From positions 1-38,248 of the forward strand of contig JANXYM010000091.1 of assembly GCA_025350045.1 (NCBI GenBank): 38,248 nucleotides of DNA, given 5' to 3'. Position 1 is the first letter of the stretch. Every line of letters starts with the position of its first letter. The notes under the pieces are model-generated. The model made no database searches, was not told where the DNA came from, and saw nothing but the letters and a program-made list of their open reading frames with translations. This DNA comes from Methanomicrobiales archaeon (lineage in GTDB: Archaea > Halobacteriota > Methanomicrobia > Methanomicrobiales > Methanospirillaceae). Below are positions 45 to 24,281 of the stretch, one piece after another. Position numbers and translations under genes: made by a program.

Positions 45-1556
45 ATGCGCCTCGCCCCCGAACTTAAATCCAAGATCGACTCCCTCTGGGATAAATTCTG
101 GAGTGGCGGTCTCTCCAACCCGCTCCAGTCCATCGAGCAGATGTCCTATCTCATCTTCATGAACCGGCTCGAAGCAATGGACACGTTCGAGCAGAAGAAG
201 GCGCAGGCAAACAAACAGACCTACAAATCCATCTTTGAAGGCGAAGAAAATGAGAAATGCCGGTGGTCGCACTGGAAACATTTCCCGGCAGACAAGATGC
301 TCATCCATGTGCGGGACAAGGTCTTCCCGTTCATCAAGGACATCCATGACGGGGAAAAGACGCTCTTTGCCCAGCACATGAAAGATGCGGTCTTCCTGAT
401 CCCCAAGCCCTCGCTCCTCCAGGAAGCCGTCACGATCATTGACGAACTCAAGATATCTGCGCAGAACCGGGACACCCAGGGCGACATCTACGAATACCTG
501 CTCTCGCAGCTCGCAACCTCCGGGAAGAACGGACAGTTCCGCACGCCCCGGCACATCATCCGGATGATGGTCGAACTCGCGGACCCGGATATCAATGACC
601 GGATCTGCGATCCTGCCTGCGGTACGGCAGGGTTCCTGGTCAATTCATACGAGTATATCCTCAAAAAATACACGAGCAAAGACAAGATCGAAGTAGATTC
701 CGAAGGGGGGTACCATAACCTGCTCGGAGACAAGATCACCGAACCGAAACACTGGGACAAACTCTGGAAGGATACCTTCTACGGGTACGATTTTGATAAC
801 ACGATGATCCGGATCTCGCTCATGAACATGATCCTCCACGGGATCAAGGCGCCCCAGGTTGCCCTGCGGGATACCCTCTCCAAAGGGTTCACGGAAAACG
901 ACCGGTATACCATCGTTCTCGCAAACCCGCCATTCAAGGGGAGCATTGACAAGAGCGACATCAACGATGCACTCACCATCCAGACTACCAAGACAGAACT
1001 GCTCTTTGTCGAGCGGATGGTGCACCTCCTCCAGATTGGCGGTAAGTGCGGGGTCATTGTACCGGACGGGGTACTCTTCGGCAGCTCCAATGCCCATAAG
1101 AAACTCCGGCAGATCCTGCTGGAACAGTGCCAGCTCGAAGGCATCGTTTCCATGCCGTCCGGCGTCTTCAAGCCGTACGCCGGGGTTTCCACAGCTGTTC
1201 TCATCTTCACCAAAGGCGGATCTACCGACAAGGTCTGGTTCTATGATATGGATGCGGACGGGTACTCACTCGATGACAAACGGACATTCATCGATGGCAA
1301 GGGAGATATCCCGGAGATTATCCAGCATTACCGCAACCGGAAGAAAGAAAATCCCGCAGACCGGAAAGGCAAATGTTTCTTTGTGCCCATCAGCGAGATC
1401 AAGGAGAACAGCTACGATCTCTCCATCTCGCGCTATAAGGAGATCGAGTATGCTGAAGTCCAGTACGAAAAACCGGAAGTAATTATTGAGAAGATCGAGA
1501 AGCTGGAAAACGAGATCCAGAAGAGTCTCAGGGAATTGAAAACTCTGTTGAAATAA
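45..1556 (+). CDS. hsdM: Type I restriction-modification DNA methyltransferase subunit (HsdM-like)
   Basis: This is an N6-adenine DNA methyltransferase of the type I HsdM family, 503 aa, the usual full length. The N-terminal helical domain (about 1-140) is followed by the SAM-dependent catalytic domain. Motif I reads DPACGTAGF from D189, and the catalytic motif NPPF is at 294-297. The C-terminus (about 465-503) is a charged coiled-coil of the kind that contacts the specificity subunit. The ATG follows AGGA by about 10 nt. HsdM works with HsdS to methylate a bipartite site and with HsdR to cut unmodified DNA. Neither partner follows: about 800 bases of non-coding DNA do. Partners could only be upstream, outside the window. 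The family call is firm; whether the enzyme is active or solitary is unknown. Confidence 0.93.
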   Translation: MRLAPELKSKIDSLWDKFWSGGLSNPLQSIEQMSYLIFMNRLEAMDTFEQKKAQANKQTYKSIFEGEENEKCRWSHWKHFPADKMLIHVRDKVFPFIKDIHDGEKTLFAQHMKDAVFLIPKPSLLQEAVTIIDELKISAQNRDTQGDIYEYLLSQLATSGKNGQFRTPRHIIRMMVELADPDINDRICDPACGTAGFLVNSYEYILKKYTSKDKIEVDSEGGYHNLLGDKITEPKHWDKLWKDTFYGYDFDNTMIRISLMNMILHGIKAPQVALRDTLSKGFTENDRYTIVLANPPFKGSIDKSDINDALTIQTTKTELLFVERMVHLLQIGGKCGVIVPDGVLFGSSNAHKKLRQILLEQCQLEGIVSMPSGVFKPYAGVSTAVLIFTKGGSTDKVWFYDMDADGYSLDDKRTFIDGKGDIPEIIQHYRNRKKENPADRKGKCFFVPISEIKENSYDLSISRYKEIEYAEVQYEKPEVIIEKIEKLENEIQKSLRELKTLLK

Positions 1557-11096: not shown

Positions 11097-12287
11097 TTAA
11101 GCTCCTTGGAAAAAAAATCTCGTGATGGCAAGAAGGAAATCCCCAAAGATGATTGCCGTTACGAATCCGGCAGTGATCGGGATGATGAAGGGAACAGCAT
11201 AGGATATCCAGACCGTGCCGGCTTTTTTGTAGATCGCCAGCTCTGAGGTGAACTCTTCAGGATGCTCCCTGAGATCCTTGGTGTATACCCGGCCTTCACC
11301 GGCATACATTCTCTTAATGGCATCCCAGAATCCGATAAACTTCCTGCTGACAACTCCTTTTTTCTCCTCAAAGTCCTCCATCACAAATCCCCATTCCTGC
11401 TGGATGGTCTCGCCTTTTACCGGGAACCCGAAGAACATGTACATGAGCGGGGCGCGGTTCCCCCGCACGATGTTGATTACAAAGATGCCCAGGGGTGCCA
11501 CAAGGTTGAGCAGCAGGGCATTGATCAGGACCGAGAACGCGAGGAACCCAAGGGGAGTATTTCCCAGCAGCGGGGTGAATGGGAAGGTTGGGATGCAGAA
11601 CGAGATGAAGATGAGCGCCCAGGCATCTGCTCCCCCGAAGAGGTGCATCCTGCCAAAGACATAGAAGACGAGAGCGAATACCGCCGGAAGGACAATGAAC
11701 AGGCTGTCGTTGAGTTTCCAGCTGCCGTTCGTGATCATGTAAAATGAAGCGATTGCAAGACTTATCACAACGAGTACGAAATACCACCTGCTGATAGCTT
11801 CGGCCATGTTCGTCTCCTGTTTTTTCCGTTGCTTTTTCGGGTTGTCCTCGAACTTTCCCATGTATTCCATGTAGGAGACATACCCGAGTATGCCGGCAAA
11901 CATCCCGTACCAGGCGACCAGCTGCAGGTTGAGCGATGGTGCAAGAACAAACCATGACAGGGCCGGGAGAATGAGGACGAGGGCAAGGTAATACCCGATC
12001 GAGGCCTTCCGGTAATACAGGGTGAGGCCGAGCGAGTCAGTCCTGCCCCGGTTATCGAGATAATCTGCATACAGGAAGCTGGCAACAAGGGAAAGGTAGC
12101 CAAAGACCAGGCTGAGATTTGCCGTCGTCTGCCAGAGAAGGTAGCTGGTGCAGCAGATGCCTACGGCAAGCATCGGGAGCCAGTGTATGAATGGCACCCG
12201 ACGATCCCGGATATCGAGATACGAGGTATAGATAAGGGTTGCAAGAACTGCAACCGCCGAGATTACCATCGGTATTAATAGTTCCAT
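11097..12287 (-). CDS. Archaeal prepilin/preflagellin peptidase (A24 family)
   Basis: This membrane aspartic protease removes the class III signal peptide of archaeal pilins or archaellins. The first catalytic aspartate is D25 in [11 protein letters not shown], and the second is D221 in the GGAD form of the GxGD motif. Eight or more membrane helices are visible. The 396-aa length is longer than FlaK-type enzymes (about 230), with a long loop at about 145-165 and a soluble segment plus extra helices at the C-terminus. I chose the ATG at 12287 because it puts the first helix at the N-terminus; the ATG at 12344 would add 19 polar residues. No ribosome-binding site is clear for either. It is upstream of hisI and about 7.5 kb from the pilus-like motor genes, whose substrates it may process. 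Confidence 0.88.
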
Positions 12288-12451
12288 AAGTCCGGTATAT
12301 GCTTTTTTTTTGGAGCACTTATGTATGGCGCTGGCAACTGTCATTCCGCAACTATCTAATATCCGGGTTGCGAATATCTGCCATACAATAATGGTACCGG
12401 ATTAAAAAAGGGATCTGTCGCCAGCAGTATATTTCACGGAATGGTTTTTTT

Positions 12452-13063
12452 ATGAAAATCCAGGATATGATTGATTCCGTACTCAAGGGATCACAACCCT
12501 TAGGAGCATTCCCGCTCCCTGAACTCTTCAGGTTCGCAGAAAAGGGCACGGTAAATGGCATTGCTGTAGCCACAGGGAACGAGAAGCAGCAGTATCTTGC
12601 GTTCCTTGCCGGTGAAGCTGAAGGAGCGATCTTCATCGACGACAAAGGGACACTGTACGGTGACAAGGCCGTGATGCTGATCACCGGTGTTGAATCGTTT
12701 ACTTTGTATGAGGTACATCCTGAACTGGTTGACGCAGTTGTGGCCGGCTGTCGTATTTTTGAAAAGTCCCACTTAAAAAAGGGCAATAACTACGAAATTC
12801 CTGCGTTCGGTAAACAAAATGCAGGGTTAGGGGTGTTCACCCTGGTGATACTGCGGAATGATGAACCCCAGAACGGGGTCCGGGTATCCCTGAGAAAAGA
12901 AGGCAAGGTTGTCGGCAGTGATGTAACCACGCAGGATGGAAGGGTGGGTTTCAAGCTGATGCACGGCAAGTACGATGTTATCGTGCAGGACCGCAGCCAG
13001 CAGCTCACAACGTTCCATGTAATTTTTGCTGATTCCAGCGCACAAAAGATCCTGCAGCTCTAA
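12452..13063 (+). CDS. Protein with N-terminal PATAN-like and C-terminal carboxypeptidase-regulatory-like domains
   Basis: A 203-aa soluble protein in two parts. Residues about 1-110 (GTVNGIAVATGNEKQQYLAFLAGEAEGAIFIDDKG region) look like the DUF4388/DUF2226 type of domain, seen also in the proteins at 17415 and 18810. Residues about 120-203 form a seven-strand-like module with NGVRVSLRKEGK and a GKYDVIV turn, resembling the carboxypeptidase regulatory or transthyretin-like fold. There is no signal peptide. It is divergent from the prepilin peptidase gene and may share its regulatory region. The domain assignments are inferred by pattern only; the function is unknown. Confidence 0.65.
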   Translation: MKIQDMIDSVLKGSQPLGAFPLPELFRFAEKGTVNGIAVATGNEKQQYLAFLAGEAEGAIFIDDKGTLYGDKAVMLITGVESFTLYEVHPELVDAVVAGCRIFEKSHLKKGNNYEIPAFGKQNAGLGVFTLVILRNDEPQNGVRVSLRKEGKVVGSDVTTQDGRVGFKLMHGKYDVIVQDRSQQLTTFHVIFADSSAQKILQL

Positions 13064-13370: not shown

Positions 13371-14936
13371 ATGAAGATAGGACGTGAGGACTTCGAAGCT
13401 CTTATCAAAGGGGACAAAACAATTGCCCCGTACATAGAGCTGGATCCCCTGGCCGGTTTGTACTCGGTTTTTGGGGTAAAGACTGCCAGCAATCCCAATT
13501 ATCTCATAAAAGCCATCTACGAGATGTACGAGACAAATCTCAATAAGAAACTTGCAGTCAAAGCAGTGCGCAAGCTCTTCCGTTCGGTGGGTCAGGGTTC
13601 GGTTGGTCTCAACAACCTGCTAAAAAAACTCGGCATGGAATTAAAGCCGGCAGAATTCCTCATGCTGGTCTTCAAGATGCAGCATCAGCAGGGCTGGGGT
13701 GCCCCGTTCGAGCTCGTAGAGGCAGGAGAGAAGCGGATCGTCCTCCGCACAAAACAGACCTTTGAATCCCAGGTTATGAAAGACTGGAACATGCAGGTCT
13801 GTGGTATTCACCAGGGATGGATCGAAGGTGTCCTCACGGCAGTGACCGGAAAGTCATGGTTCTGCTTAGAGAAGACCTGCCATGCCAGGGGTGACCCGTA
13901 CTGTGAATTCGTGGCCGACCAGGTATCTCCGAGCTGGAAGTTCAAGGCAGAAGCAGTGGTCAAAGGGGAATCTGCGATTACCGAATTTATCGAGCACAAA
14001 CCCCTTGTGGGTAAGATCACCCTCATGGATGAACCGGTTGTCATGATGCCCCGTTTCATCTTCACGTCCATGACCCAGTCGCTGAAAAAGACGATGGGAG
14101 AGGCGCCGGCAAGCGGTGTCAACTATCGTGCCTACATGGACATGGGCAAGGAAAATGTCGAGCACTACAAGAAGATGAGTATCACGTATGACCTCTCCAG
14201 GACCAAACTTGACAAGGATCTCATCGAGCTGCACAAGCGTTTCGCAGCGTACGGGACTCCTTTGGTTTCCGGAGGCCAGATTGCTTATGGCAGCCATATC
14301 GTCAACAATAACTTCGAGGTTGTTGATTCCATTGAAAAGGACATGGGAGTAAAGGCCACCGTCTTCCAGAAAACGGGAGACAAGGCCATCCGCATCTCCA
14401 CCAACGTTGTTGGCGCTGACGGCAAGCGGGCTGTCGGGACCGAGATTTCAAGTGTTGTCTACGACGCCGTGATCACCAAAGGGCAGACCTATCACGGCAC
14501 TGCAGATGTGGTTGGTAAAAAGATGGTAGTGGCGTATGAGCCAATCAGGAATTCCGCAGGAGAGATCATCGGTATCCTTTTTGTCGGAACACCTGAAGAT
14601 GATGTCCTGGGCCAGTTTAAGGATGAGATCAAGAAAAGGACCAATCCCAAGACCCTCTCTGACATGGCATTTGCCTTCTACTCCCAGATGGGCTGGTTTA
14701 ACTTCGTCAAGGAAGAGTGGGACGAGAAGACCAAGACAAAGACGATTACCCTCTCCCACACGGTCGAGTCCGAGTCATTCGGGAATACCGGCAAAACCGT
14801 CTGTTACTGCACGGCCGGCCTGCTTGCTGGTATCATCGAGGGATCATTTGGCATCAGGGTACAGGCTAAAGAGATCAAGTGCAAGTCCAAAGGTGACGAG
14901 CACTGCGTCTTTACCATCACCAACAAACCAGAGTAA
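13371..14936 (+). CDS. Soluble V4R-Cache-V4R sensor protein
   Basis: A 521-aa protein with no membrane helix or signal peptide. Residues about 60-183 form a V4R (4-vinyl reductase-type) small-molecule-binding domain ending in CHARGDPYCEF. Residues about 285-415 look like a single Cache domain of the sort usually found outside the cell on chemoreceptors (AYGSHIVNNNFEVVDSIEKD…GTEISSVVYDAVITKGQTY…AYEPIRNSAGEIIGILFVG). Residues about 420-519 are a second V4R ending in CKSKGDEHCVF. V4R domains bind hydrophobic or tetrapyrrole-like ligands. A receiver-PAS regulator gene follows 56 nt later, so the pair may form one signalling unit. A cytoplasmic Cache between two V4Rs is unusual. Confidence 0.85.
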   Translation: MKIGREDFEALIKGDKTIAPYIELDPLAGLYSVFGVKTASNPNYLIKAIYEMYETNLNKKLAVKAVRKLFRSVGQGSVGLNNLLKKLGMELKPAEFLMLVFKMQHQQGWGAPFELVEAGEKRIVLRTKQTFESQVMKDWNMQVCGIHQGWIEGVLTAVTGKSWFCLEKTCHARGDPYCEFVADQVSPSWKFKAEAVVKGESAITEFIEHKPLVGKITLMDEPVVMMPRFIFTSMTQSLKKTMGEAPASGVNYRAYMDMGKENVEHYKKMSITYDLSRTKLDKDLIELHKRFAAYGTPLVSGGQIAYGSHIVNNNFEVVDSIEKDMGVKATVFQKTGDKAIRISTNVVGADGKRAVGTEISSVVYDAVITKGQTYHGTADVVGKKMVVAYEPIRNSAGEIIGILFVGTPEDDVLGQFKDEIKKRTNPKTLSDMAFAFYSQMGWFNFVKEEWDEKTKTKTITLSHTVESESFGNTGKTVCYCTAGLLAGIIEGSFGIRVQAKEIKCKSKGDEHCVFTITNKPE

Positions 14937-14992: not shown

Positions 14993-15829
14993 ATGGCAAA
15001 AATTCCCCGGGTTATTATCGTCGAAGATGACGAGATCATTGCCGATCTGATTTCCCTCATGCTTGAAAAGAAGGGGTACACTGTTGTCGGGAAGATTGCA
15101 TCCGGAGAAGAATCCATACGAAAAGCTGCAGAACTTGAGCCGGATCTTATCCTTATGGATATTCACCTGACCGGGCAGATGGACGGAGTAACTGCTGCCC
15201 AGTACATATTCCAGCTCTTTCACTTTCCGATCATCTTTTTAACCGGCATGTGCGATGACACTCTTTTGGAAAGGGCCAAAAATGCACAGCCTTACGGGTA
15301 TCTCTTAAAACCATTTTCAGATCGTGAGCTTACCTCAAATGTTGAACTTGCACTCTATAATCACTCCATAAAAATGAGGCATCTCGACAATTATCCGATC
15401 GGTCTCCCAAAAAAGATCATAGAAATTCTTGATGTCCTCATTCTGACAGATCCCCAGGGAAGGATCATTTTTTTCAATCCCTATGCCGGGCGTTTTTTGG
15501 ATCTTCCCGACAACCAGATCCTCATGAATCACTGGCGGGAAGTGATGATGTTCATCAACGACAAGACCGACGAACAACTCGAGGATCCCATACCGGAAGT
15601 GGTCAAGCAGCAGCTGGTGGTCCTGCATGACATTAATGCAGCTGTTGTCAACCGGTCCGGCAAACGCAGGAAAGCAAGTATCATTGCCCGGCCTGTCAAG
15701 GATGATAACAATAACCTGCTGGGTGTTCTTTTACACATCAAGGAAAAGACCCTTGACCAGATAAAAATGGCTGCAAAAAAATATGATCCCTCCGTGTATG
15801 TCCAGTCCTCCCCGATAAAACGCATGTGA
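14993..15829 (+). CDS. Response regulator with receiver and PAS domains
   Basis: A 278-aa protein. The receiver domain (about 5-122) has acidic pocket E11, D12 and D13, phosphoacceptor D56 in LILMDIHLTG, a switch T in FLTG and the KPF lysine. A linker is followed by a PAS-like domain (about 140-260: DVLILTDPQGRIIFFNPYA, a typical PAS start, then LLGVLLHIKEKT). There is no DNA-binding or enzymatic output, so it may relay signals by contact. It starts 56 nt after the V4R-Cache-V4R gene and is convergent with the MinD gene. No histidine kinase is in the window. Confidence 0.92.
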   Translation: MAKIPRVIIVEDDEIIADLISLMLEKKGYTVVGKIASGEESIRKAAELEPDLILMDIHLTGQMDGVTAAQYIFQLFHFPIIFLTGMCDDTLLERAKNAQPYGYLLKPFSDRELTSNVELALYNHSIKMRHLDNYPIGLPKKIIEILDVLILTDPQGRIIFFNPYAGRFLDLPDNQILMNHWREVMMFINDKTDEQLEDPIPEVVKQQLVVLHDINAAVVNRSGKRRKASIIARPVKDDNNNLLGVLLHIKEKTLDQIKMAAKKYDPSVYVQSSPIKRM

Positions 15830-15955: not shown

Positions 15956-16750
15956 TTACATCTCTGATTTCTTCTTGAACAGGGCTTTTGAGAACCGGTC
16001 TATGAAGCCTTCTCTCTTGACGGCAACGACCTCTTCTTTGTAGGCAACACCAACCAGGTCGGATGCAATGCGTTTGATTGCCTTCGAAGCCGGCGACGTG
16101 GGGAATTTGATGACAATCGGGATCTTTAACGAAGAAGCCCTGCGTACATTGGGATCTTCGGGAATAACGCCGAGCACTTTGACGCCGAGGACTTTCTCCA
16201 TCTTCTTGGTGATGATATCTGATTTGTCCTGATCCACACGGTTAATGATAGAACCCAGAACATGCCCGCCGACAACTTCAGTGAGTATTTTGGTCTTGAG
16301 TGCGTCTACAATGGAAGAGAGTTCAGGATTCACAACAAGGATCACTTCGTCGGCTATTGCAAGCGGGACCACGCCGTCCTTGCTGATGCCTGCAGGTGCA
16401 TCAATGAGCAGGAATTCGCAGCGCTTGACAATCTCACTCATCACATCCCGCATTTTGTCGGGGTCTGCCTGCTGGAATCCCTGGAGTGATATACCGCTCG
16501 GGATTACCTTGAGCCCGGCGGGGCCCTCGTATATTGCATCGTTGATATTGCATTTGCCTGCAAGAATTTCATGCAGGGTGACCGGGGCATCCTGCAGGCC
16601 AAGGATAAGACCTACGTTTGCCATCCCGATATCGGCATCCATAAGGTAGGTTTCCTTACCTAACTGGGCGAGCATAGTTCCGAGATTTACAGATACGGTT
16701 GTCTTTCCCGTACCCCCTTTACCCGAAGCGATAGTGTAAACCTTGACCAT
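15956..16750 (-). CDS. minD: MinD/ParA-type ATPase
   Basis: A 264-aa P-loop ATPase of the MinD/FlhG/ParA superfamily. The deviant Walker A KGGTGKTT is at 11-18, with the signature lysine K11; switch I has the LMDADIGMANVGL region and Walker B lies in FLLIDAPAG. The C-terminal 20 residues (GFIDRFSKALFKKKSEM) can form a basic amphipathic helix, the membrane-targeting device of MinD. Such ATPases set the position of cell-division or motility machinery. It has its own promoter (see 16786) and an AAGGTG ribosome-binding site. Next to it are roadblock and DUF4388-like genes and the pilus-like motor genes, which favours a placement role for that machine; this is an inference. Confidence 0.93.
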   Translation of the reverse strand: MVKVYTIASGKGGTGKTTVSVNLGTMLAQLGKETYLMDADIGMANVGLILGLQDAPVTLHEILAGKCNINDAIYEGPAGLKVIPSGISLQGFQQADPDKMRDVMSEIVKRCEFLLIDAPAGISKDGVVPLAIADEVILVVNPELSSIVDALKTKILTEVVGGHVLGSIINRVDQDKSDIITKKMEKVLGVKVLGVIPEDPNVRRASSLKIPIVIKFPTSPASKAIKRIASDLVGVAYKEEVVAVKREGFIDRFSKALFKKKSEM

Positions 16751-16785
16751 TGAACACCTTGTGGTGATAGGTATTTCTATTTTAT

Positions 16786-16794
16786 TTATATAAG
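16786..16794 (-). promoter_or_regulatory. TATA box of the minD-like gene
   Basis: The minus strand reads CTTATATAA, about 40 nt before the ATG. A start of transcription near 16763 would leave a leader of about 13 nt carrying the AAGGTG ribosome-binding site. It separates minD from the two genes upstream on the same strand. Confidence 0.65.
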
Positions 16795-16819
16795 ATTACC
16801 CAATTACTCTCATTGTGTT

Positions 16820-17392
16820 TTATATCCACCAGTTTAAAATAACTTTTGTATCTGTTTCTATCTGCTGTACGCTCTTTGCGGGAAGCGGAGTTTTTGCCCG
16901 GACTATGCCAATTAGTTCTGATCCCTTATGCGTAAGCCCGAACAGGACCACACCTGTTGTCCCGGTGAGCGGCTCGTTTTTGAATATCTCACTGTAGGTC
17001 GCGGCATCCACCTGGGCGGAAGTTCCCCCGGAGGATCCAAAGAGAAGACCATCGGCAGTTGCCAGGGTGAAACTGACCAGGGAATATTTTCCTACGAGCG
17101 CTTCGAGGCTTTCTGTCAGGTTGCTTCTGGTGCTGGTGAGGTCGGTATCTTTTGGCCGGGAGGATTCAGCAGTTCGCGCCAGGGGGTCTGTCGTCATCAC
17201 CGGTCTGAATACGGGTGTGGGTTTGGATGCCGGCTGGTAATCAAGGGGATGAACGGGAGGCACGGATGCATCTGCATGCCGTTTATTTCCGGTTCTTCTC
17301 CGGAAGATCGCTATGGCGATGACCACGATAATGATGATACCGATGATTCCTATCGGCAGAAGATACCCGGATCCTGTCAGTGAAATGTCCAC
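16820..17392 (-). CDS. Membrane-anchored roadblock/LC7-like protein
   Basis: A 190-aa protein with a single N-terminal membrane helix (about 10-31), a basic stop-transfer (FRRRTGNKRH), a Pro/Ser/Thr-rich linker (about 40-88) and a C-terminal domain (about 90-190) that resembles roadblock/LC7: ESLEALVGKYSLVSFTLATADGL, then DAATYSEIF and a final amphipathic helix. The domain would face the cytoplasm, so the protein can tether partners to the membrane. Roadblock proteins dimerise and often regulate Ras-like GTPases (MglB type). It starts 22 nt after the stop of the gene at 17415 and is probably co-transcribed with it. The fold call is by pattern, moderately sure. Confidence 0.72.
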   Translation of the reverse strand: MDISLTGSGYLLPIGIIGIIIIVVIAIAIFRRRTGNKRHADASVPPVHPLDYQPASKPTPVFRPVMTTDPLARTAESSRPKDTDLTSTRSNLTESLEALVGKYSLVSFTLATADGLLFGSSGGTSAQVDAATYSEIFKNEPLTGTTGVVLFGLTHKGSELIGIVRAKTPLPAKSVQQIETDTKVILNWWI

Positions 17393-17414
17393 GATACAAC
17401 AACTCCTCTCGTCC

Positions 17415-18182
17415 TTACCGCTCCATCAGGTGTTCGAGCTGCAGCTGTTTGATCATGGTCTTGCAGTCATTGCGGATCTTATCGGTTACATTATCAAGGT
17501 CCAGCGTGTCAAACGTGTCGATATCATTATCGAAACTGCTCGGATCCTGGGGTGGCTCCTCTGCCGGTGCGGGCTTTTTTTGCTCCTGCTGGTGGCGGAC
17601 CGGGATCTGGGGGGTAGTATACTCCGGTGCACCAGGTTTTCTGGCTGAAAGTGGCTGGGCTGGAGGGGGTGAAGCCGGCTTTACCGGAAGTGGTTGGGAA
17701 CCTGTCCGGGTGAGTGAGGGGGTAACAACGGGTTTTGACGGGGCCGGTGCTGCGGTGAATGAAGAAGATGGCCGCAGGGCAGGTGATGCCACGTTTGCAG
17801 GTTTATGGGGGGCCGCAGTAGTTTTTAGTGGTGCTGCAACGGGTTTTGCAGGCGTTGCCGGAGCCGGGTGTACGGCCTTGAGAATACGGCATGGTTTGTT
17901 GAATTCGAGGGATAGCTGGACCTGGGCCTCGTCCAGGCTTGAGAGAGCTGCATCTACCTCATGATCGCCTATTTTCTGCAGCTCCTCCCATGCACCATCC
18001 CCGGATTTATTTAAGATCTTTGCGAGTATGCAGTTGCCGGATTTGAAGACGAGTGTCCCGCTCGCCGTATCGGATGAAATGTTGCAGATCCCGGAAAATT
18101 TCGTATGCTCGAGTTCATCGAGGATAGAAGAGATCAGTACGAGCTTCTTGATTTCACGGAAAGTACCTCTCGGGAGTTGCAT
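17415..18182 (-). CDS. DUF4388/PATAN-like protein with long proline-rich linker
   Basis: Residues about 1-105 are a domain like DUF4388 or PATAN (ILDELEHTKFSGICNISSDTASGTLVFKSGNCILAKI), found in bacterial and archaeal signalling and motility proteins. Residues about 105-205 are Pro/Ala/Thr-rich and disordered. The tail (about 210-255) is acidic and then helical (TDKIRNDCKTMIKQLQLEHLMER). The frame runs up to an ATG at 18230, but a TATA-like box (18207-18215) lies inside that extension, so I take the ATG at 18182, giving 255 aa and an almost leaderless mRNA. It is the first gene of the unit with the roadblock gene at 16820 and is divergent from the roadblock gene at 18441. Confidence 0.75.
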   Translation of the reverse strand: MQLPRGTFREIKKLVLISSILDELEHTKFSGICNISSDTASGTLVFKSGNCILAKILNKSGDGAWEELQKIGDHEVDAALSSLDEAQVQLSLEFNKPCRILKAVHPAPATPAKPVAAPLKTTAAPHKPANVASPALRPSSSFTAAPAPSKPVVTPSLTRTGSQPLPVKPASPPPAQPLSARKPGAPEYTTPQIPVRHQQEQKKPAPAEEPPQDPSSFDNDIDTFDTLDLDNVTDKIRNDCKTMIKQLQLEHLMER

Positions 18183-18206
18183 TATGTTCTTATGTAATTG
18201 CACTAG

Positions 18207-18215
18207 TGTATATAG
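18207..18215 (-). promoter_or_regulatory. TATA box of the DUF4388-like gene
   Basis: The minus strand reads CTATATACA about 29 nt before the ATG at 18182. Its position inside the longer possible reading frame argues against the upstream ATG at 18230 and for a transcript starting within a few bases of 18182. Confidence 0.65.
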
Positions 18216-18440
18216 GTTCTTTTCGTTCAATATCCCGCCCGAAAGCCCGCTCTTTTTGCACGCGCACTTCGTGATTTTTTGTTCAGGACCGGTATACCCG
18301 CTTGTTCTCTTCAGAAAAAAAAGCAGATACGAGTTTTTTTAATCAATGTTTTTGTTTTTTTTAATCAGTGAACGAGAGATAAAAGACCAACCTTTTAATA
18401 GAAAAAGAGCAAGAGAAATTAAATATTATATGGTGGACGT

Positions 18441-18788
18441 ATGTTAAAACCATTATTAGAGGAATTTTTAAAGGTGGAAGGGGTATCAGCTGCGGTTGTT
18501 GTCGGAAGGGATGGCTTTGTTATTGAAAGTGCTGTATCGGGCAAAGTCGATATAGAGGCACTGGGTGCAATGGCCTCAACCGGCCTGGGTACTTCTGAAG
18601 CAATGGGCAGCACGCTGGGAAAAGGCGAACTTTTACAGATGCTCGTAGAACTGGAAAAAGGACCCATTATTCTTTCCCCGTTATCTGCGGATGAGCTGAT
18701 TGCCATTGTAGCAGATACGACTTCAAATGTCGGAAGGATCCGGTATGAACTGAAGAAAAATAAAGAGCGCATCGTTGCTGCGCTCTGA
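18441..18788 (+). CDS. Roadblock/LC7 (MglB-like) protein
   Basis: A 115-aa protein that is one complete roadblock/LC7 domain: an N-terminal helix (MLKPLLEEFLKVEGV), a beta hairpin (SAAVVVGRDGFVIESA), a central amphipathic helix with small residues (ALGAMASTGLGTSEAMGS) and a C-terminal helix (RIRYELKKNKERI). Such domains form dimers; MglB acts on the GTPase MglA to set polarity in gliding bacteria. No MglA-like GTPase is in the window. The ATG has GGTGG about 5 nt upstream. It begins a plus-strand group continuing at 18810, about 20 nt later, divergent from the DUF4388-like gene. Confidence 0.88.
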   Translation: MLKPLLEEFLKVEGVSAAVVVGRDGFVIESAVSGKVDIEALGAMASTGLGTSEAMGSTLGKGELLQMLVELEKGPIILSPLSADELIAIVADTTSNVGRIRYELKKNKERIVAAL

Positions 18789-18809
18789 TCACCCCCACCC
18801 ACTCCTTTT

Positions 18810-19544
18810 ATGAAATTTCCCGCAGGAACTGACGGGGGGACCATTACAAATCCCCAGGAAGAGGGTTTGATACAGTATCTGATGGCTTTCCGGGGAGCTA
18901 TCGAGATCGAGATCGAGATCGAGACCGGGACCGGGAATGGATTTATCTTAACCGAGAACGGGAAACTCATTGCCGCATATTTTAAAACCGGAGAGACGGT
19001 ATCCCGGGGAAGGGAAGCCCTGTCGTACCTGATGATGGATTCTCCCGAGAGCGGATCGCAGCAGACGTTTAATTTAAGAAAATACAGTGATGATGAGTTT
19101 ACCCTTGCATTAAAAATTGCCCAGGCAGAAAACCTGCTTCTCTCATCGATCTCACAGAAAGTGGAGGCACCTGCCCCAGAAAGTGTCACAGAAAGCCCCG
19201 CAACGCCGGTACTGCTGGATACCCGCAAACTCGAAAAAATTGCCAGTCTGCCCGGTGTGATTGCCGTTTCGGCATTTTTTGAAGGTTTCCCAGTCCAGTC
19301 TCTAGGTTATGCAGACTTTGAACATGTTGCCGCGCTGGCTGAAGATCTCATGCGGGCTGGTGCGAAAATCGCCGATGAGATGAAGGTTGGACACCTCGAT
19401 CAGATGATCCTGGAAACAGCCGAGAATAAATTTATCATTGTACCCTGTGGCGATCTCTTCCTGTGCGTTTTTACCACTGCCGATGCCCAGCTCGGGCTCA
19501 TCAGGGTTGTACTGAAAAGTATCCAGGAAGAGATTACTGCCTGA
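18810..19544 (+). CDS. DUF4388/DUF2226-like domain fused to a roadblock domain
   Basis: A 244-aa protein. Residues about 15-115 resemble the DUF2226/DUF4388 type of domain (GFILTENGKLIAAYFKTGETVSRG). A linker of about 25 residues rich in Glu, Pro and Ser follows, and residues about 136-243 are a roadblock/LC7 domain (LPGVIAVSAFFEGFPVQSLGYADFEHVAALAEDL…FIIVPCGDLFLCVFTTADAQLG). This combines in one chain the two domain types found separately in the neighbouring genes. Near the N-terminus the DNA has hexamer repeats (18900-18937) that encode alternating Glu-Ile. It follows the roadblock gene at 18441 by 21 nt and probably shares its transcript. Confidence 0.8.
   Translation: MKFPAGTDGGTITNPQEEGLIQYLMAFRGAIEIEIEIETGTGNGFILTENGKLIAAYFKTGETVSRGREALSYLMMDSPESGSQQTFNLRKYSDDEFTLALKIAQAENLLLSSISQKVEAPAPESVTESPATPVLLDTRKLEKIASLPGVIAVSAFFEGFPVQSLGYADFEHVAALAEDLMRAGAKIADEMKVGHLDQMILETAENKFIIVPCGDLFLCVFTTADAQLGLIRVVLKSIQEEITA
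18900..18937 (+). repeat. In-frame hexanucleotide repeat
   Basis: About three and a half copies of TCGAGA are followed by two copies of GACCGG, encoding IEIEIEIE then TGTG in the DUF2226-like domain of the protein at 18810. Slippage here would change length by two residues without a frameshift. Confidence 0.7.
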
Positions 19545-19698
19545 TCCCGGTTCCCCGAAAGAACAGGGGAACGTGCTTATTTACCTGTCCAGGCAGAATC
19601 TGGTTGATCTGCCATCCACAGAGTAGATATAGTCACAGGCAAAATTATTATTTAGACTATTATATGCGAGCTCATCTAAAGACCAATTAACCAAGGTG

Positions 19699-22245
19699 AT
19701 GTCTGGATTGAACACGGATAGTGATGAAACCCTCGAAGATACCAACTCATTGTTGAAGATGATCGGTGGGATCAAGAAAAAAGAGGAGGCAAAAAAACCG
19801 CAAGACCCTGTTCAGCCTCCTGTACCCCCAAAAGCAGAGGAGAATGCAGCAGAAACGGGTGACTTTTCTGCCCTCTTAAAAAAGCTGGGGATGGCAAAAA
19901 AAGAGGCGCCGCCAGCAGCGCAGGCCAAAAAAACACAGCCTGTTTCCTCCCTGTCCGATGAGATGTCATTTTCCGATATGGATGACCTGCTCGAGGCACC
20001 CGGGGAACCAAAAAAGGCAGTTCCCCCTGTATCTTCAGATGCACAGAAACCGGATTTCTATGGAAAAGAAGTACGTGCTTCCTTGGGAAAACTGCTCAAT
20101 ACTACGGATGCAGCCACCCCCTCTCCCGTTCCCGCACCGGAGCCCGCAAGGCCACGCCCCCCCTTCAAAAAGGAACCCGTTTCCCGTCCTGTGTGGGAAG
20201 AAGAATCAGTAGTCGAGATCATCGATGAGGATCCAAAGGCACCCCTCAGGAAAAATCTTGCAAAAAAAGTTACTGCTGTGCCTCCCCATGAGCGGGAAGA
20301 AGAATCAGCAGTGGAGATCATCGATGAGGATCCAAAGGCAGCCCTCAGGAAATCTCTGGGCAAGAAAGTAGCTCCTGCTGCTCCCCCGGCTGCTGCAATG
20401 GTGACAGAATCTGATGAAAAGATCATATCCGTTGACCAGATAACTGATTTCTCCGGGCTTATTCTGCCCAAAGGTGCCACATTCAAGATCGAAGAGCTAA
20501 AATTACACGGGCGAATCAATGCTTTCGAGAGTTCCGGTTCCGGTACCCTTCCCCAGGAGTTTAACGAGATCTGGAAACGTGAATTTTCTACCGCCGGTTT
20601 CAAGGATCTCGATATTGACGGGGAGATAGAATTTGGTAAGGAAAAACTTAAGGCAGAGCCCAAGAGATTCGGCCTCTCAACCCTGTTTAAGGTGATCTCT
20701 TCAGAGCAGGAGGCGTACGATCCCAAGAAACACGGGCCGCTTGTGGACCTTGTCTTCCAGGCAAAGCCTGGTGTTGAAGAGATGGAGATGTATCCGGTCA
20801 ATGAGCCTTTTGCCTACATCCGGATCACGTACGATCATTCAACCCATGAGTACACCTACAATGTGCTCGAACCGATCCTCACCGAACCGGAAAAAGAGTT
20901 GTTAATCGAGCTCAAGGAGCGTCTCTTCGATACGCTCGATATCAATACCAAAGATATCTCCAAAGAAGAAGCCCGGCGCAAACTCCGGGGTTTTGCCGAT
21001 GATATTATTGTCGATTTCGGGATCAAACTCGCACCGGAACAGCGCGAGAAGATCCACTATAATATGTACAAGGATTTCCTTGGGGATGGTCTGATTGATC
21101 CGATTATGCACGACAAATATATCGAGGATATATCGTGCGATGGGGTCAATGTCCCCCTGTTTGCGTTCCATGCCAGCTATGAATCAATGAAGACAACGCT
21201 CTCCTATTATAATGCTGACGAACTTGATTCCTTCGTCACCAAACTTGCCCAGAGGGCAGGTAAATACATCTCGATTGCAGAACCGATCCTCGATGCTACC
21301 ATGCAGGATGGTTCCCGTATCCAGATGACACTCGGGCAGGAAGTCACCGCCCATGGTTCGACATTCACCATCCGTAAGTTCAAGGATGAACCCATCACCC
21401 CCACGGATCTGATTGAATGGGGTACCTTTGCCCCTCTCTCGATTGCGTACATCTGGTTGTGTGTGGAAAATGGCAAATCTGCCATATTTGCCGGGGGAAC
21501 TGCATCCGGTAAGACCACGGCTCTCAACGCGATTTCCCTGTTTATTCCGCCCATGTCGAAGATCGTCACCCTTGAAGACACCCGTGAAGTGAAGCTGCCC
21601 CACCCGAACTGGATCCCGAGCGTAACCCGTGATTCGTTTGATACTGCGGGCAGGGGTGAGATCAACATGTACGAACTGTTGCGGGCAGCGATGCGACAAC
21701 GTCCTGAATACATCATTGTGGGTGAGGTCCGTGGCAAGGAATGCCAGACACTCTTCCAGGCAATGAGTACCGGCCACATCACGTATTCCACAACCCACGC
21801 GGATTCCGTGGCAAGTGTCGTACACCGTATCGAAAACCCTCCCATGGATGTCCCGCGAAACATGCTGTCTGCCCTTGACTTCATCTGTATCCAGGTGCAG
21901 GCGCGCGTAGGCGGGAAACGTATCCGCCGGAACAAGCAGATCGTCGAGATCCTTGATATCGATCCGAGGACCAACGAGCTGATCACCAATGAGGTGTTCA
22001 AGTGGCGCTCTGCAACTGACGAACACTCCTACTCCGGAAAATCCTATCTCCTCGAAGAGATCATGGAGGCAAAAGGCTGGAGTGAGACCCGTATGCGCGA
22101 AGAGCTCAAGCGCAGGCAGGAAGTGCTCGAATGGATGAGAATCAAGAAGATCCGGCACTACAAGGATGTGGCAAAGATCCTGATCTCCTATCACCGGGAT
22201 CCCGAAGCGGTCATTGAAAAAGTGAGGAAAGATCTCTATGAATAG
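19699..22245 (+). CDS. Type II/IV secretion or pilus assembly ATPase (GspE/TadA/ArlI family)
   Basis: The motor ATPase that drives assembly of an archaeal type IV pilus-like or secretion machine, 848 aa from the ATG at 19699 (a GTG lies one codon earlier). The C-terminal half carries the family set: Walker A GGTASGKTT (about 599-607), Asp box TLEDTRE (about 624-630), Walker B in EYIIVGEVRG (about 670-679) and His box GHITYSTTHADS. The first 240 residues are unusually long and disordered, with an LLKK-x-G-type motif twice (NSLLKMIGG, SALLKKLGM) and a 33-residue tandem duplication. ArlI is about 550 aa, so the extension is extra. A TATA-like ATTATATG is about 35 nt upstream. Two TadC-like genes follow directly, the first overlapping by 8 nt. 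Confidence 0.93.
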   Translation: MSGLNTDSDETLEDTNSLLKMIGGIKKKEEAKKPQDPVQPPVPPKAEENAAETGDFSALLKKLGMAKKEAPPAAQAKKTQPVSSLSDEMSFSDMDDLLEAPGEPKKAVPPVSSDAQKPDFYGKEVRASLGKLLNTTDAATPSPVPAPEPARPRPPFKKEPVSRPVWEEESVVEIIDEDPKAPLRKNLAKKVTAVPPHEREEESAVEIIDEDPKAALRKSLGKKVAPAAPPAAAMVTESDEKIISVDQITDFSGLILPKGATFKIEELKLHGRINAFESSGSGTLPQEFNEIWKREFSTAGFKDLDIDGEIEFGKEKLKAEPKRFGLSTLFKVISSEQEAYDPKKHGPLVDLVFQAKPGVEEMEMYPVNEPFAYIRITYDHSTHEYTYNVLEPILTEPEKELLIELKERLFDTLDINTKDISKEEARRKLRGFADDIIVDFGIKLAPEQREKIHYNMYKDFLGDGLIDPIMHDKYIEDISCDGVNVPLFAFHASYESMKTTLSYYNADELDSFVTKLAQRAGKYISIAEPILDATMQDGSRIQMTLGQEVTAHGSTFTIRKFKDEPITPTDLIEWGTFAPLSIAYIWLCVENGKSAIFAGGTASGKTTALNAISLFIPPMSKIVTLEDTREVKLPHPNWIPSVTRDSFDTAGRGEINMYELLRAAMRQRPEYIIVGEVRGKECQTLFQAMSTGHITYSTTHADSVASVVHRIENPPMDVPRNMLSALDFICIQVQARVGGKRIRRNKQIVEILDIDPRTNELITNEVFKWRSATDEHSYSGKSYLLEEIMEAKGWSETRMREELKRRQEVLEWMRIKKIRHYKDVAKILISYHRDPEAVIEKVRKDLYE
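20195..20392 (+). repeat. 99-bp tandem duplication inside the ATPase gene
   Basis: Two units with a period of 99 bases (33 codons) begin with the same GGGAAGAAGAATCAG at 20195 and 20294, both encoding the core VEIIDEDPKA and then LRK followed by a lysine-rich turn. Differences are mostly single bases. The end of the second unit is less certain. Confidence 0.75.
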
Positions 22246-23161
22246 CTATGAGCGGTTCTGCTTCAACCTGCTTGGCAAACGGATGAAAGGCAAGCGTGAG
22301 GAGTATGCCCAACTGAGAACCGATCTCATCTCCGCCCGGTTCAAAACCTCGTTTGAGGCCTACCTTTCCACTGCCTTTGTCAGCTCCATTATTGTTGGGT
22401 TCAGTGCAGCAGCAGTAATCGGTATCTTTACCTGGATTTTGAAAATACCCGCCCTGATAAAATACAAGGGTGCCGTGCCCGGCCCGCTGGTTGCCCTGTC
22501 CGCTTACAGCATGATCCTGGGAACCATCGGGATTACGATCTTCTCCCTGCTGGTATTTGGCGGGCTTACGTATGTGGCATTCATCATGTATCCCGGTCTT
22601 GAGGCAGGGAACAGGCAAAGGAATATCGATGCCAGCCTCCCCTATGCGATCAATTATGTCACCTCCATGTCCACTGCCGGGATCACTCCTGCCGAGGTTT
22701 TCCGTTTGCTGGGGGACAGTCCCATCTATGGCCAGTGTTCGGTTGAGGCGCGGTATGTTGCCCGGGAGATCGATATTTTCGGTCGTGACCTGATCGATGC
22801 GCTCCGGCTGGTATCATCCACTACCCCCAGTAAACGGATGAAGGAATTTTTGCAGGGTGCGATGGCGAGCATTTCGAGCGGTGGCAACCTGACAACCTAT
22901 TTCCGGACAAAAGCAGACCAGTACGCGCTCGAGAACCGGCAGACGCAGAAACTGTTCTTAGATACCCTCGGGCTGATTGCGGAGTCGTATGTTACGGCAA
23001 TGGTTGCCGGCACGCTGTTTTTGATCATCCTGCAGTCAATTATGTCGGTGCTCTCCGGGGACAATAAGCCGATGTTCCTGTACGCAATTATCTATATCAT
23101 GATCCCTCTGGGGAGTATCGCGTTTGTGATTATGATCAGTTCAATGACACCGGAGTCCTGA
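22238..23161 (+). CDS. TadC-like membrane protein of the pilus/secretion platform (first copy)
   Basis: A 307-aa type II secretion system F/TadC family protein. It has four predicted membrane helices (about 42-68, 91-117, 247-270 and 278-302), with the cytoplasmic F-domain between helices 2 and 3 (DASLPYAINYVTSMSTAGITPAEVFRLL and ISSGGNLTTYFRTKA). These proteins form the inner-membrane platform that the ATPase turns or pushes. Its start overlaps the ATPase stop by 8 nt, which shows translational coupling. ArlJ of archaella has the two F-domains in one chain; here they are in two tandem genes, as in Tad systems. The family call is good. Confidence 0.9.
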   Translation: MNSYERFCFNLLGKRMKGKREEYAQLRTDLISARFKTSFEAYLSTAFVSSIIVGFSAAAVIGIFTWILKIPALIKYKGAVPGPLVALSAYSMILGTIGITIFSLLVFGGLTYVAFIMYPGLEAGNRQRNIDASLPYAINYVTSMSTAGITPAEVFRLLGDSPIYGQCSVEARYVAREIDIFGRDLIDALRLVSSTTPSKRMKEFLQGAMASISSGGNLTTYFRTKADQYALENRQTQKLFLDTLGLIAESYVTAMVAGTLFLIILQSIMSVLSGDNKPMFLYAIIYIMIPLGSIAFVIMISSMTPES

Positions 23162-23162
23162 T

Positions 23163-24281
23163 ATGGGCATCAAAGATCGCATCAACAATATCATGAAACG
23201 TGACAAAACCCCTCCCGCTCCCCTTACCTCCCTTCCTGACGCGGGTGCTGATATGGGCATCAAGGATCGTTTCAAAAGTCCGTTACCCGGCACTGGTAGT
23301 TCCCCCGCAAAAGCCGCAGCTATGAGTTCTGAGGAGGCAGAATACCAGGAGATCTCGCACAAACTTGAGCATGAACGCCAGACCCGGGAAGGTATAGGGC
23401 GATTCCTCAAACACCCGATCCAGGTGCTCCTGGAAAAACCGGTCAATATTCTGCTCGTTTGCATACCGCTTGCGTTGATCGTTTTCATTGGCGGTTTTAT
23501 CTTCAGTGTACGAACCTACGGCTTGCAGGTACTCTTCAAATCCACGGTTGTGGATGATTTTGCCGTCTTTGCCGTTCTCATAGCAATTGTCCCGGTAGCC
23601 CTCCTCGATCTTAAGGAACAATGGCGGATATCGAGCTTAGAAACGGGTCTCCCGAACTTTTTTAGGGATCTCGCCGGTATGAACGATTCCGGTATGACGC
23701 TGCCCAATGCCGTGCATCTCGTGGCGGGTTCAGAATACGGGACGCTCACCCCGCATATCCGTAAACTTGACAATGAGATGTCCTGGGGGGTAGGATTTGT
23801 TGAGGCACTGTACCGGTTCGGCAAAAGCCTGGGAACTCCTCTTGCAGACCGGAGTGTTGACCTGATCGCAAAGGCGAGCAGGGCTGGCGGTGATGTGAGT
23901 GAAGTGCTGCGGGCTGCGGCAAAGGATACCTATGAAGTGGTCAACCTCCAGCAGGAACGCAGTAATAATATGCTGATCTACGTGGTTATCGTCCTCGTCT
24001 CGTTTGCCGTGTTCCTGTTCGTTATTGCAATTCTTGTCACATCGTTCCTCTCGACAATGGCAACCGCCGGGGCTACTGCCGTTGCGAGTGGGGCAAAGGG
24101 GTTCGGGGGTATTATCGATATCTTCGTGTACAAGCGACTCTTCTCACACGCTGCGATGCTCCAGGGATTCTTCTCCGGGCTTGTGGCTGGCCAGATGGGT
24201 GAAGCACGTTTTGTATCAGGCCTGAAGTACTCTGCCATCATGCTGCTGATAGCATGGTTTACCTTCCGGTTCCTGATGTAA
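23163..24281 (+). CDS. TadC-like membrane protein of the pilus/secretion platform (second copy)
   Basis: A 372-aa type II secretion system F/TadC family protein, starting 1 nt after the stop of the first copy. The cytoplasmic N-terminus has the sequence MGIKDR at residue 1 and again at about 31, both with in-frame ATG, so the start is ambiguous; I take the upstream ATG because of its tight spacing. Membrane helices are at about 98-118, 130-150 and 275-300 and near the C-terminus (about 335-371). The F-domain is recognisable in LETGLPNFFRDLAGMNDSGM and KASRAGGDVSEVLRAAAKD. It presumably pairs with the first copy in the same platform. It ends the operon; a T-run and an intergenic repeat follow. 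Confidence 0.9.
   Translation: MGIKDRINNIMKRDKTPPAPLTSLPDAGADMGIKDRFKSPLPGTGSSPAKAAAMSSEEAEYQEISHKLEHERQTREGIGRFLKHPIQVLLEKPVNILLVCIPLALIVFIGGFIFSVRTYGLQVLFKSTVVDDFAVFAVLIAIVPVALLDLKEQWRISSLETGLPNFFRDLAGMNDSGMTLPNAVHLVAGSEYGTLTPHIRKLDNEMSWGVGFVEALYRFGKSLGTPLADRSVDLIAKASRAGGDVSEVLRAAAKDTYEVVNLQQERSNNMLIYVVIVLVSFAVFLFVIAILVTSFLSTMATAGATAVASGAKGFGGIIDIFVYKRLFSHAAMLQGFFSGLVAGQMGEARFVSGLKYSAIMLLIAWFTFRFLM

Follow-up and report, generated by a model that had tools for sequence, protein, structure and literature searches.

A MinD, roadblock and PATAN-like gene module beside a PilB3-type pilus motor in Methanomicrobiales, and its association with an MvhAG-like hydrogenase in relatives

A five-gene module encoding a MinD-type ATPase, three roadblock proteins and PATAN-like domains adjoins the genes of a PilB3-type pilus motor in a Methanomicrobiales archaeon, and in related families the same module is joined to an MvhAG-like hydrogenase. 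We consider it about an even chance (roughly 0.5) that the module serves here as a sensory relay and placement module on the motor and was recruited from a hydrogenase- or redox-linked module, a reading in which we infer each interaction, the localisation and the signal from the observed gene content, folds and synteny. The window, that is the whole stretch of 38,248 nucleotides analysed, is contig C49 of the methanogen genome G000 (121 contigs, 95.9% complete), whose closest relatives as judged by the roadblock fusion protein PTN-RB are Methanoregula and other Methanomicrobiales genomes. All eight open reading frames that a first-pass annotation had proposed for positions 15956-24281 were recovered in place, and its domain calls were upheld by profile searches and, for the membrane-anchored roadblock protein mRB, by a fold model.

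The motor consists of a PilB3-type secretion/pilus ATPase (19696-22245, plus strand) and two TadC-like proteins, PilC1 (22238-23161, plus strand) and PilC2 (23163-24281, plus strand), in agreement with the earlier assignment to an archaeal type IV pilus-like machine. PilB exceeded the cut-offs for T2SSE (111 bits) and PilB3_C (33.6 bits, cut-off 27) and reached 22.1 bits for PilB3_N (cut-off 27), while T2SSF was matched by both PilC1 (56 bits) and PilC2 (64 bits). Just beyond the range covered by the first-pass annotation lie an archaeal A24 prepilin peptidase (11097-12344, minus strand; PF06847, 92 bits), which by synteny is kept at the locus in relatives, and P203, a 203-aa PATAN-like protein (12452-13063, plus strand). 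The earlier statement that no pilin is seen is correct for the window, but pilin candidates occur elsewhere in the genome, with Pilin_N matches over the cut-off at C56:29258 and C46:5969. A gap of 151 bp precedes pilB, and co-transcription of pilB with the roadblock genes upstream therefore cannot be taken as given; an inverted repeat within this gap (GTTCCCC..GGGGAAC, 19550-19575) could serve as a regulatory site or mark the end of an RNA. At the start of the window (45-1556), an open reading frame read from the sequence resembles a type I restriction-modification methylase subunit.

The MinD-type ATPase (15956-16750, minus strand) scored 325 bits against TIGR01969 (cut-off 202) and carries the deviant Walker A motif GKGGTGKT. 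Its amphipathic C-terminal stretch, GFIDRFSKALFKKK, is conserved across families, the aligned C-termini sharing an F-I/V-D/E-R-F/L..xLF motif, and the tail is predicted to be of the membrane-binding type. Both the score and the conserved C-terminus bear out the assignment as MinD, and the Walker A variant and the tail are features shared with MinD proteins that cycle on membranes. MinD belongs to the same NTPase class (SIMIBI) as CooC and HypB, and in relatives it sits in hydrogenase operons, so that it might act, as these two proteins do, as a maturation factor for the hydrogenase with the roadblock proteins as scaffold. However, the protein scores as an archaeal MinD over the cut-off, possesses the conserved MinD-like amphipathic C-terminus and persists in genomes without this hydrogenase, and we rejected a role in maturation as very improbable. 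A second archaeal MinD of the same genome (317 bits; C88:1627-2997, locus L138) is encoded divergently from a roadblock gene and is adjoined by two receiver-domain genes, which indicates that the pairing of MinD with roadblock genes recurs.

The free roadblock/LC7 protein RB (18441-18788, plus strand) and the fusion protein PTN-RB (18810-19544, plus strand), in which a PATAN-like (DUF2226-like) domain precedes a roadblock domain, were recognised by Robl_LC7 (PF03259) at 58 and 38 bits, respectively. The N-terminus of PTN-RB matched DUF2226 weakly (19.4 bits, cut-off 22), and its conserved core is PGVIAVSAFFEGFPVQS. The single-pass membrane protein mRB (16820-17392, minus strand), aligned with 20 relatives, yielded no sequence profile matches, and profile comparison also failed to give a roadblock identity. 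Its AlphaFold model comprises one transmembrane helix (11-40) and an alpha-beta-beta-alpha-beta-beta-alpha domain with pLDDT mostly above 90, for which the best PDB matches in Foldseek were roadblock/LC7, MglB and Ragulator p14/MP1 chains (top E 9e-4, probability 1.00). Since mRB thus folds as a roadblock beside two roadblock proteins identified at the sequence level, the earlier count of three is right. A paralogous RB and PTN-RB pair is present at C56:21808-23021 (L140:9803-11043), and this PTN-RB paralog groups apart in the PTN-RB tree, with second copies from other genomes.

The first-pass annotation had found no MglA GTPase, which is true of the window; the same genome nevertheless encodes a 169-aa Ras-like GTPase on contig C109 (755-1261), with P-loop, TPGQ and NKCD motifs and a Pfam Ras score of 28.8 bits (cut-off 21.6). 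Both this GTPase and the module were found in 91 genomes, the module only in 14, the GTPase only in three and neither in 41, an association that is very strong by a Fisher test in which kinship is ignored and not significant when the tree is controlled for (three of six independent pairs changed the same way and none the opposite way, p 0.25). Among nine genomes searched, none had a GTPase gene in cis to the roadblock genes. A relative of the C109 GTPase is also present in Methanocella-like genomes.

PTN2 is encoded within 17415-18230 (minus strand), with a conserved start at 18182 (MQLPRG..), and consists of a PATAN-like (DUF4388-like) domain, a Pro-rich linker and a conserved C-terminal helix. 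An AT-rich intergenic region evident on direct reading of the sequence (18183-18440) separates it from the divergent RB gene and probably contains the putative promoters of both arms. PTN2 scored 15.7 bits against DUF4388 (cut-off 25), and 13 of the 31 members of its family showed a weak match. In the model, the N-terminal domain was predicted with a pLDDT of about 97, followed by a long low-confidence linker and the conserved C-terminal helix, and the confident N-terminal part found no match among PDB folds in a fold search. Profile comparison related PTN2 to the PTN-RB N-terminus (92.6%) and to P203 (76.2%), in which weak profile similarity indicates a PATAN-like N-terminus and a beta-rich C-terminus. 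Since the scores fall under the Pfam cut-offs, we refer to these domains as PATAN-like rather than PATAN. P203 is the steadiest pilB neighbour among relatives. In four of these (L045, L048, L074 and L075), all without the module, P203 forms the C-terminal part of REC-PAS-P203 fusions, which ties a response regulator to a PATAN-like neighbour of the motor. At the window locus, a REC-PAS response regulator (14993-15829, plus strand; PF00072, 78 bits; PAS_9, 32 bits) follows a V4R-single Cache-V4R protein (13371-14936, plus strand; PF02830, 82 bits; PF17202, 120 bits), whose gene by synteny occupies the slot of the V4R-like and hydrogenase genes in relatives.

The neighbourhood comparison drew on 40 stretches of the order that contain pilB and on 44 named GTDB loci, with families designated f1, that of the window, to f6. 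The compared loci have a constant core of hisI and the prepilin peptidase gene together with P203, pilB, pilC1 and pilC2, into which the module is set in two ways that keep the same gene set. In f1, P203, the V4R/Cache gene and, in part, REC-PAS are followed by MinD, mRB and PTN2 on one strand and by RB and PTN-RB on the other, leading into pilB. In f3, f4 and part of f2, p187 (V4R-like), hydS, hydL, RB, PTN-RB, in some cases PTN2 and MinD, P203 and pilB lie on a single strand. The remaining f2 genomes and f5 possess a standalone module (PTN2, mRB, MinD, p187, hydS, hydL, RB, PTN-RB) separated from pilB by hundreds of kilobases or placed on a different contig; in two genomes of this layout, G004 and G010, PTN2, mRB and MinD were not beside the module in the stretch read. 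In a quick PTN-RB tree with several weak forks, the standalone layout was placed in a single clade (14 rows, SH-aLRT 95), a pattern that points to few events. Gene set and order also recurred in the GTDB loci found via PTN-RB wherever contigs were long enough, and the locus is therefore more than a chance arrangement.

PTN-RB was present in 105 of the 149 genomes of the order and lay within 3.8 kb of pilB (median gap below 1 kb) in 56 of these 105, although these counts, like those for hydL below, come from related genomes and are not independent events. By family, PTN-RB was near pilB in 29/30 (f1), 4/5 (f3), 11/12 (f4), 12/21 (f2) and 0/37 (f5) genomes, the exceptions in f1, f3 and f4 having the two genes on different contigs. 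The link between motor and accessory genes is thus conserved, PTN-RB adjoining a PilB3-type motor in four families, and motor and roadblock/MinD genes are not always apart in relatives, contrary to the refuting pattern that the earlier annotation had named. The first-pass annotation had gone further and proposed a placement or switching module dedicated to one pilus machine only. Adjacency to pilB in four families, including 29 of 30 genomes in that of the window, and the domain types would suit such a role; however, one whole family and part of another keep the module far from pilB, where its function cannot hinge on cis linkage, and beyond the window's family the module is most constantly accompanied by an MvhAG-like hydrogenase and a V4R-like protein, in four families and in Methanocella-like genomes. 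An exclusive dedication to the pilus is therefore decidedly unlikely, and the earlier model has to be broadened.

Orthologs of hydL, the gene for an MvhA-like [NiFe] hydrogenase large subunit, were identified in 73 genomes from four families other than that of the window. All 73 also contained PTN-RB, and the two genes were adjacent in 72 of 72 pairs on one contig, 348-2052 bp apart, in operons of the order V4R-like-hydS-hydL-RB-PTN-RB; in genome G033, the sole hydL ortholog lies within the module. The name V4R-like for p187 comes from a C-terminal motif only, its comparison with the V4R profile being weak (3.8%). In the PDB, the closest alignments of HydL were with 7t2r, a [NiFe] hydrogenase large subunit, and with MvhA of the methyl-viologen-reducing hydrogenase, and hydL and hydS matched VhuA and VhuG below their cut-offs and align to MvhA and MvhG. 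All 38 long hydL sequences retain the two Ni-binding CxxC motifs and carry at least 14 further residues as a C-terminal extension. Sensor hydrogenases lack such an extension, and hydL thus looks like a catalytic rather than a sensor-like hydrogenase by its sequence. Reading through the operon genes in relatives and Methanocella-like genomes, we recognised no mvhD.

These associations raise the alternative that the module mainly places, assembles or regulates the V4R/MvhAG-like hydrogenase, its adjacency to pilB being inherited synteny without a functional tie to the pilus. That hydL never occurs without the module (73/73), that Methanocella-like genomes have hydrogenase-module operons without pilB, and that f5 keeps module and hydrogenase together far from pilB all accord with this. 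On the other hand, none of the genomes sampled from f1 and f6 carried hydL, including 45 of the window's family, of which 30 keep the module although they lack this hydrogenase, 29 of them beside pilB and with altered gene order. In this family, the V4R/Cache protein and the response regulator stand in place of the hydrogenase. A search for the module-type hydrogenase in the window's own genome returned a best match of 2.6e-32, a level at which almost all genomes of the order yield a match, and we regard it as absent there. Since a pure hydrogenase helper should decay once the hydrogenase is absent, its retention in the window's family counts against this alternative, to which we assign a real though minor probability.

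As to the origin of the module, a sample of 247 genomes from across the phylum contained near-full-length PTN-RB in only four genomes outside the order, all from one family. The Methanocella-like operon, whose locus lacks pilB, comprises p187, hydS, hydL, RB, PTN-RB, a PTN2-like gene, an unassigned gene and MinD; at loci L187 and L188, a gene of about 240-300 aa lies between the PTN2-like gene and MinD. Because the hydrogenase link extends across orders and the pilB link was found only within Methanomicrobiales, the former looks older. One Methanogenium genome (L122/L195) contains a hydL fragment only, beside RB, with p187 and hydS not found, apparently a hydrogenase being lost while the module stays. 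Given that the standing partner outside the window's family is a V4R-like protein with an MvhAG-like hydrogenase, the module was probably not born with the pilus, and hydrogen or redox input is its likely ancestral signal.

Under the preferred reading of a relay and placement module, the V4R/Cache protein and the REC-PAS regulator would be the upstream sensors at the window locus, and the PATAN-like proteins P203, PTN2 and PTN-RB would pass their state to PilB/PilC. MinD would cycle on the membrane, mRB would anchor the roadblock scaffold there, and RB and PTN-RB would form this scaffold, possibly with a Ras-like GTPase encoded elsewhere; together these proteins would place or gate the motor, giving a chain from sensor through PATAN-like relay and roadblock/MinD placement to motor. 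Such a chain is suggested by the features of MinD, the P203 fusions, the precedent of PATAN regulators and the occurrence of V4R in MsvR. In Synechocystis, PilB1 is an interaction partner of PATAN regulators such as PixG and PixE, and PixG in addition interacts with PilC and at the leading pole (PMC12288463, PMC7690835). MsvR, a redox-sensitive regulator of methanogens, has a V4R domain (PMC3729527), and MglB, the Myxococcus roadblock protein, acts in the polarity of type IV pili (PMC9481161). Moreover, in Haloferax, MinD2 and MinD4 influence where archaella and chemosensory arrays are placed (PMC11588486). Weighing against this reading are the distance of the module from pilB in f5 and part of f2, the unlinked GTPase, whose co-occurrence with the module loses significance under tree control, the PATAN-like scores under the cut-offs, the missing PDB match for the fold of PTN2 and the 151-bp gap before pilB.

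The locus resembles the PilB3-PilC3 archaeal type IV pili (clade 2, Makarova et al., 2016, PMC4858521; Haloferax PilB3) in its VirB11-type ATPase with PilB3_C, its TadC-like proteins and its off-locus pilins, but adds the five-gene module and P203. The 2016 survey described PilB3 loci without pilins, found roadblock proteins (arCOG02603) often in various archaeal type IV pilus loci, and expected MinD (arCOG00589) usually as a stand-alone gene encoded apart (PMC4858521). With MglA-MglB(-MglC) of Myxococcus and Thermus it shares a Ras-like GTPase in the genome and the proximity of roadblock proteins to a type IV pilus system, whereas here the roadblock proteins number three, of which mRB is anchored in the membrane and PTN-RB carries a PATAN-like domain, the GTPase is unlinked, MinD is added and no RomR was seen. 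An archaeal MinD is likewise shared with Haloferax, in which MinD2 and MinD4 affect the placement of motility and sensory machines, but the operon partner of MinD2 is HVO_0596 and no pilus-motor genes (PMC11588486). PixG, PixE and LsiR of Synechocystis link a PATAN-type domain to REC and act on PilB/PilC, while here the domains are PATAN-like by weak profile similarity and the REC fusion is found in four relatives only. Finally, the hydL and hydS genes of relatives share alignment and both CxxC motifs with MvhAG/VhuAG, but fall under the VhuA/VhuG cut-offs, are joined to V4R-like, roadblock, PATAN-like and MinD genes and are missing from the window's genome. A limited literature search found no earlier description of the five-gene module, its membrane roadblock and PATAN-like parts or the hydrogenase operon, and no published account of roadblock-hydrogenase operons.

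According to two papers, MvhAG is missing from Methanomicrobiales or, within that order, from Methanocorpusculum, and how Methanomicrobiales without an obvious MvhAG use H2 for heterodisulfide reduction is posed as a question (PMC6019823, PMC5563889), while an MvhAG-type hydrogenase was reported in Methanoculleus marisnigri (Memar_1007-1008; Anderson et al., 2009, PMC2686161). In our analysis, MvhAG-like genes were common in four families of Methanomicrobiales, where their genomic setting was unexpected. Moreover, the placement of surface machines in archaea is poorly known, and here a single conserved module ties a MinD/roadblock placement kit and PATAN-like relays to a pilus motor and, in relatives, also to an MvhAG-like hydrogenase. 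A broader polarity system responsive to H2 or redox state, in which the V4R-like protein and the hydrogenase would sense and the MinD/roadblock/PATAN-like proteins with a Ras-like GTPase would set the site and timing of pili, for example for attachment to H2-producing partners, is a speculative and unlikely extension. The defined gene set allows placement, adhesion and hydrogen sensing to be probed together and, since the kit joins a hydrogenase in relatives, the site or timing of pilus assembly in methanogens may be guided by a hydrogen or redox signal.
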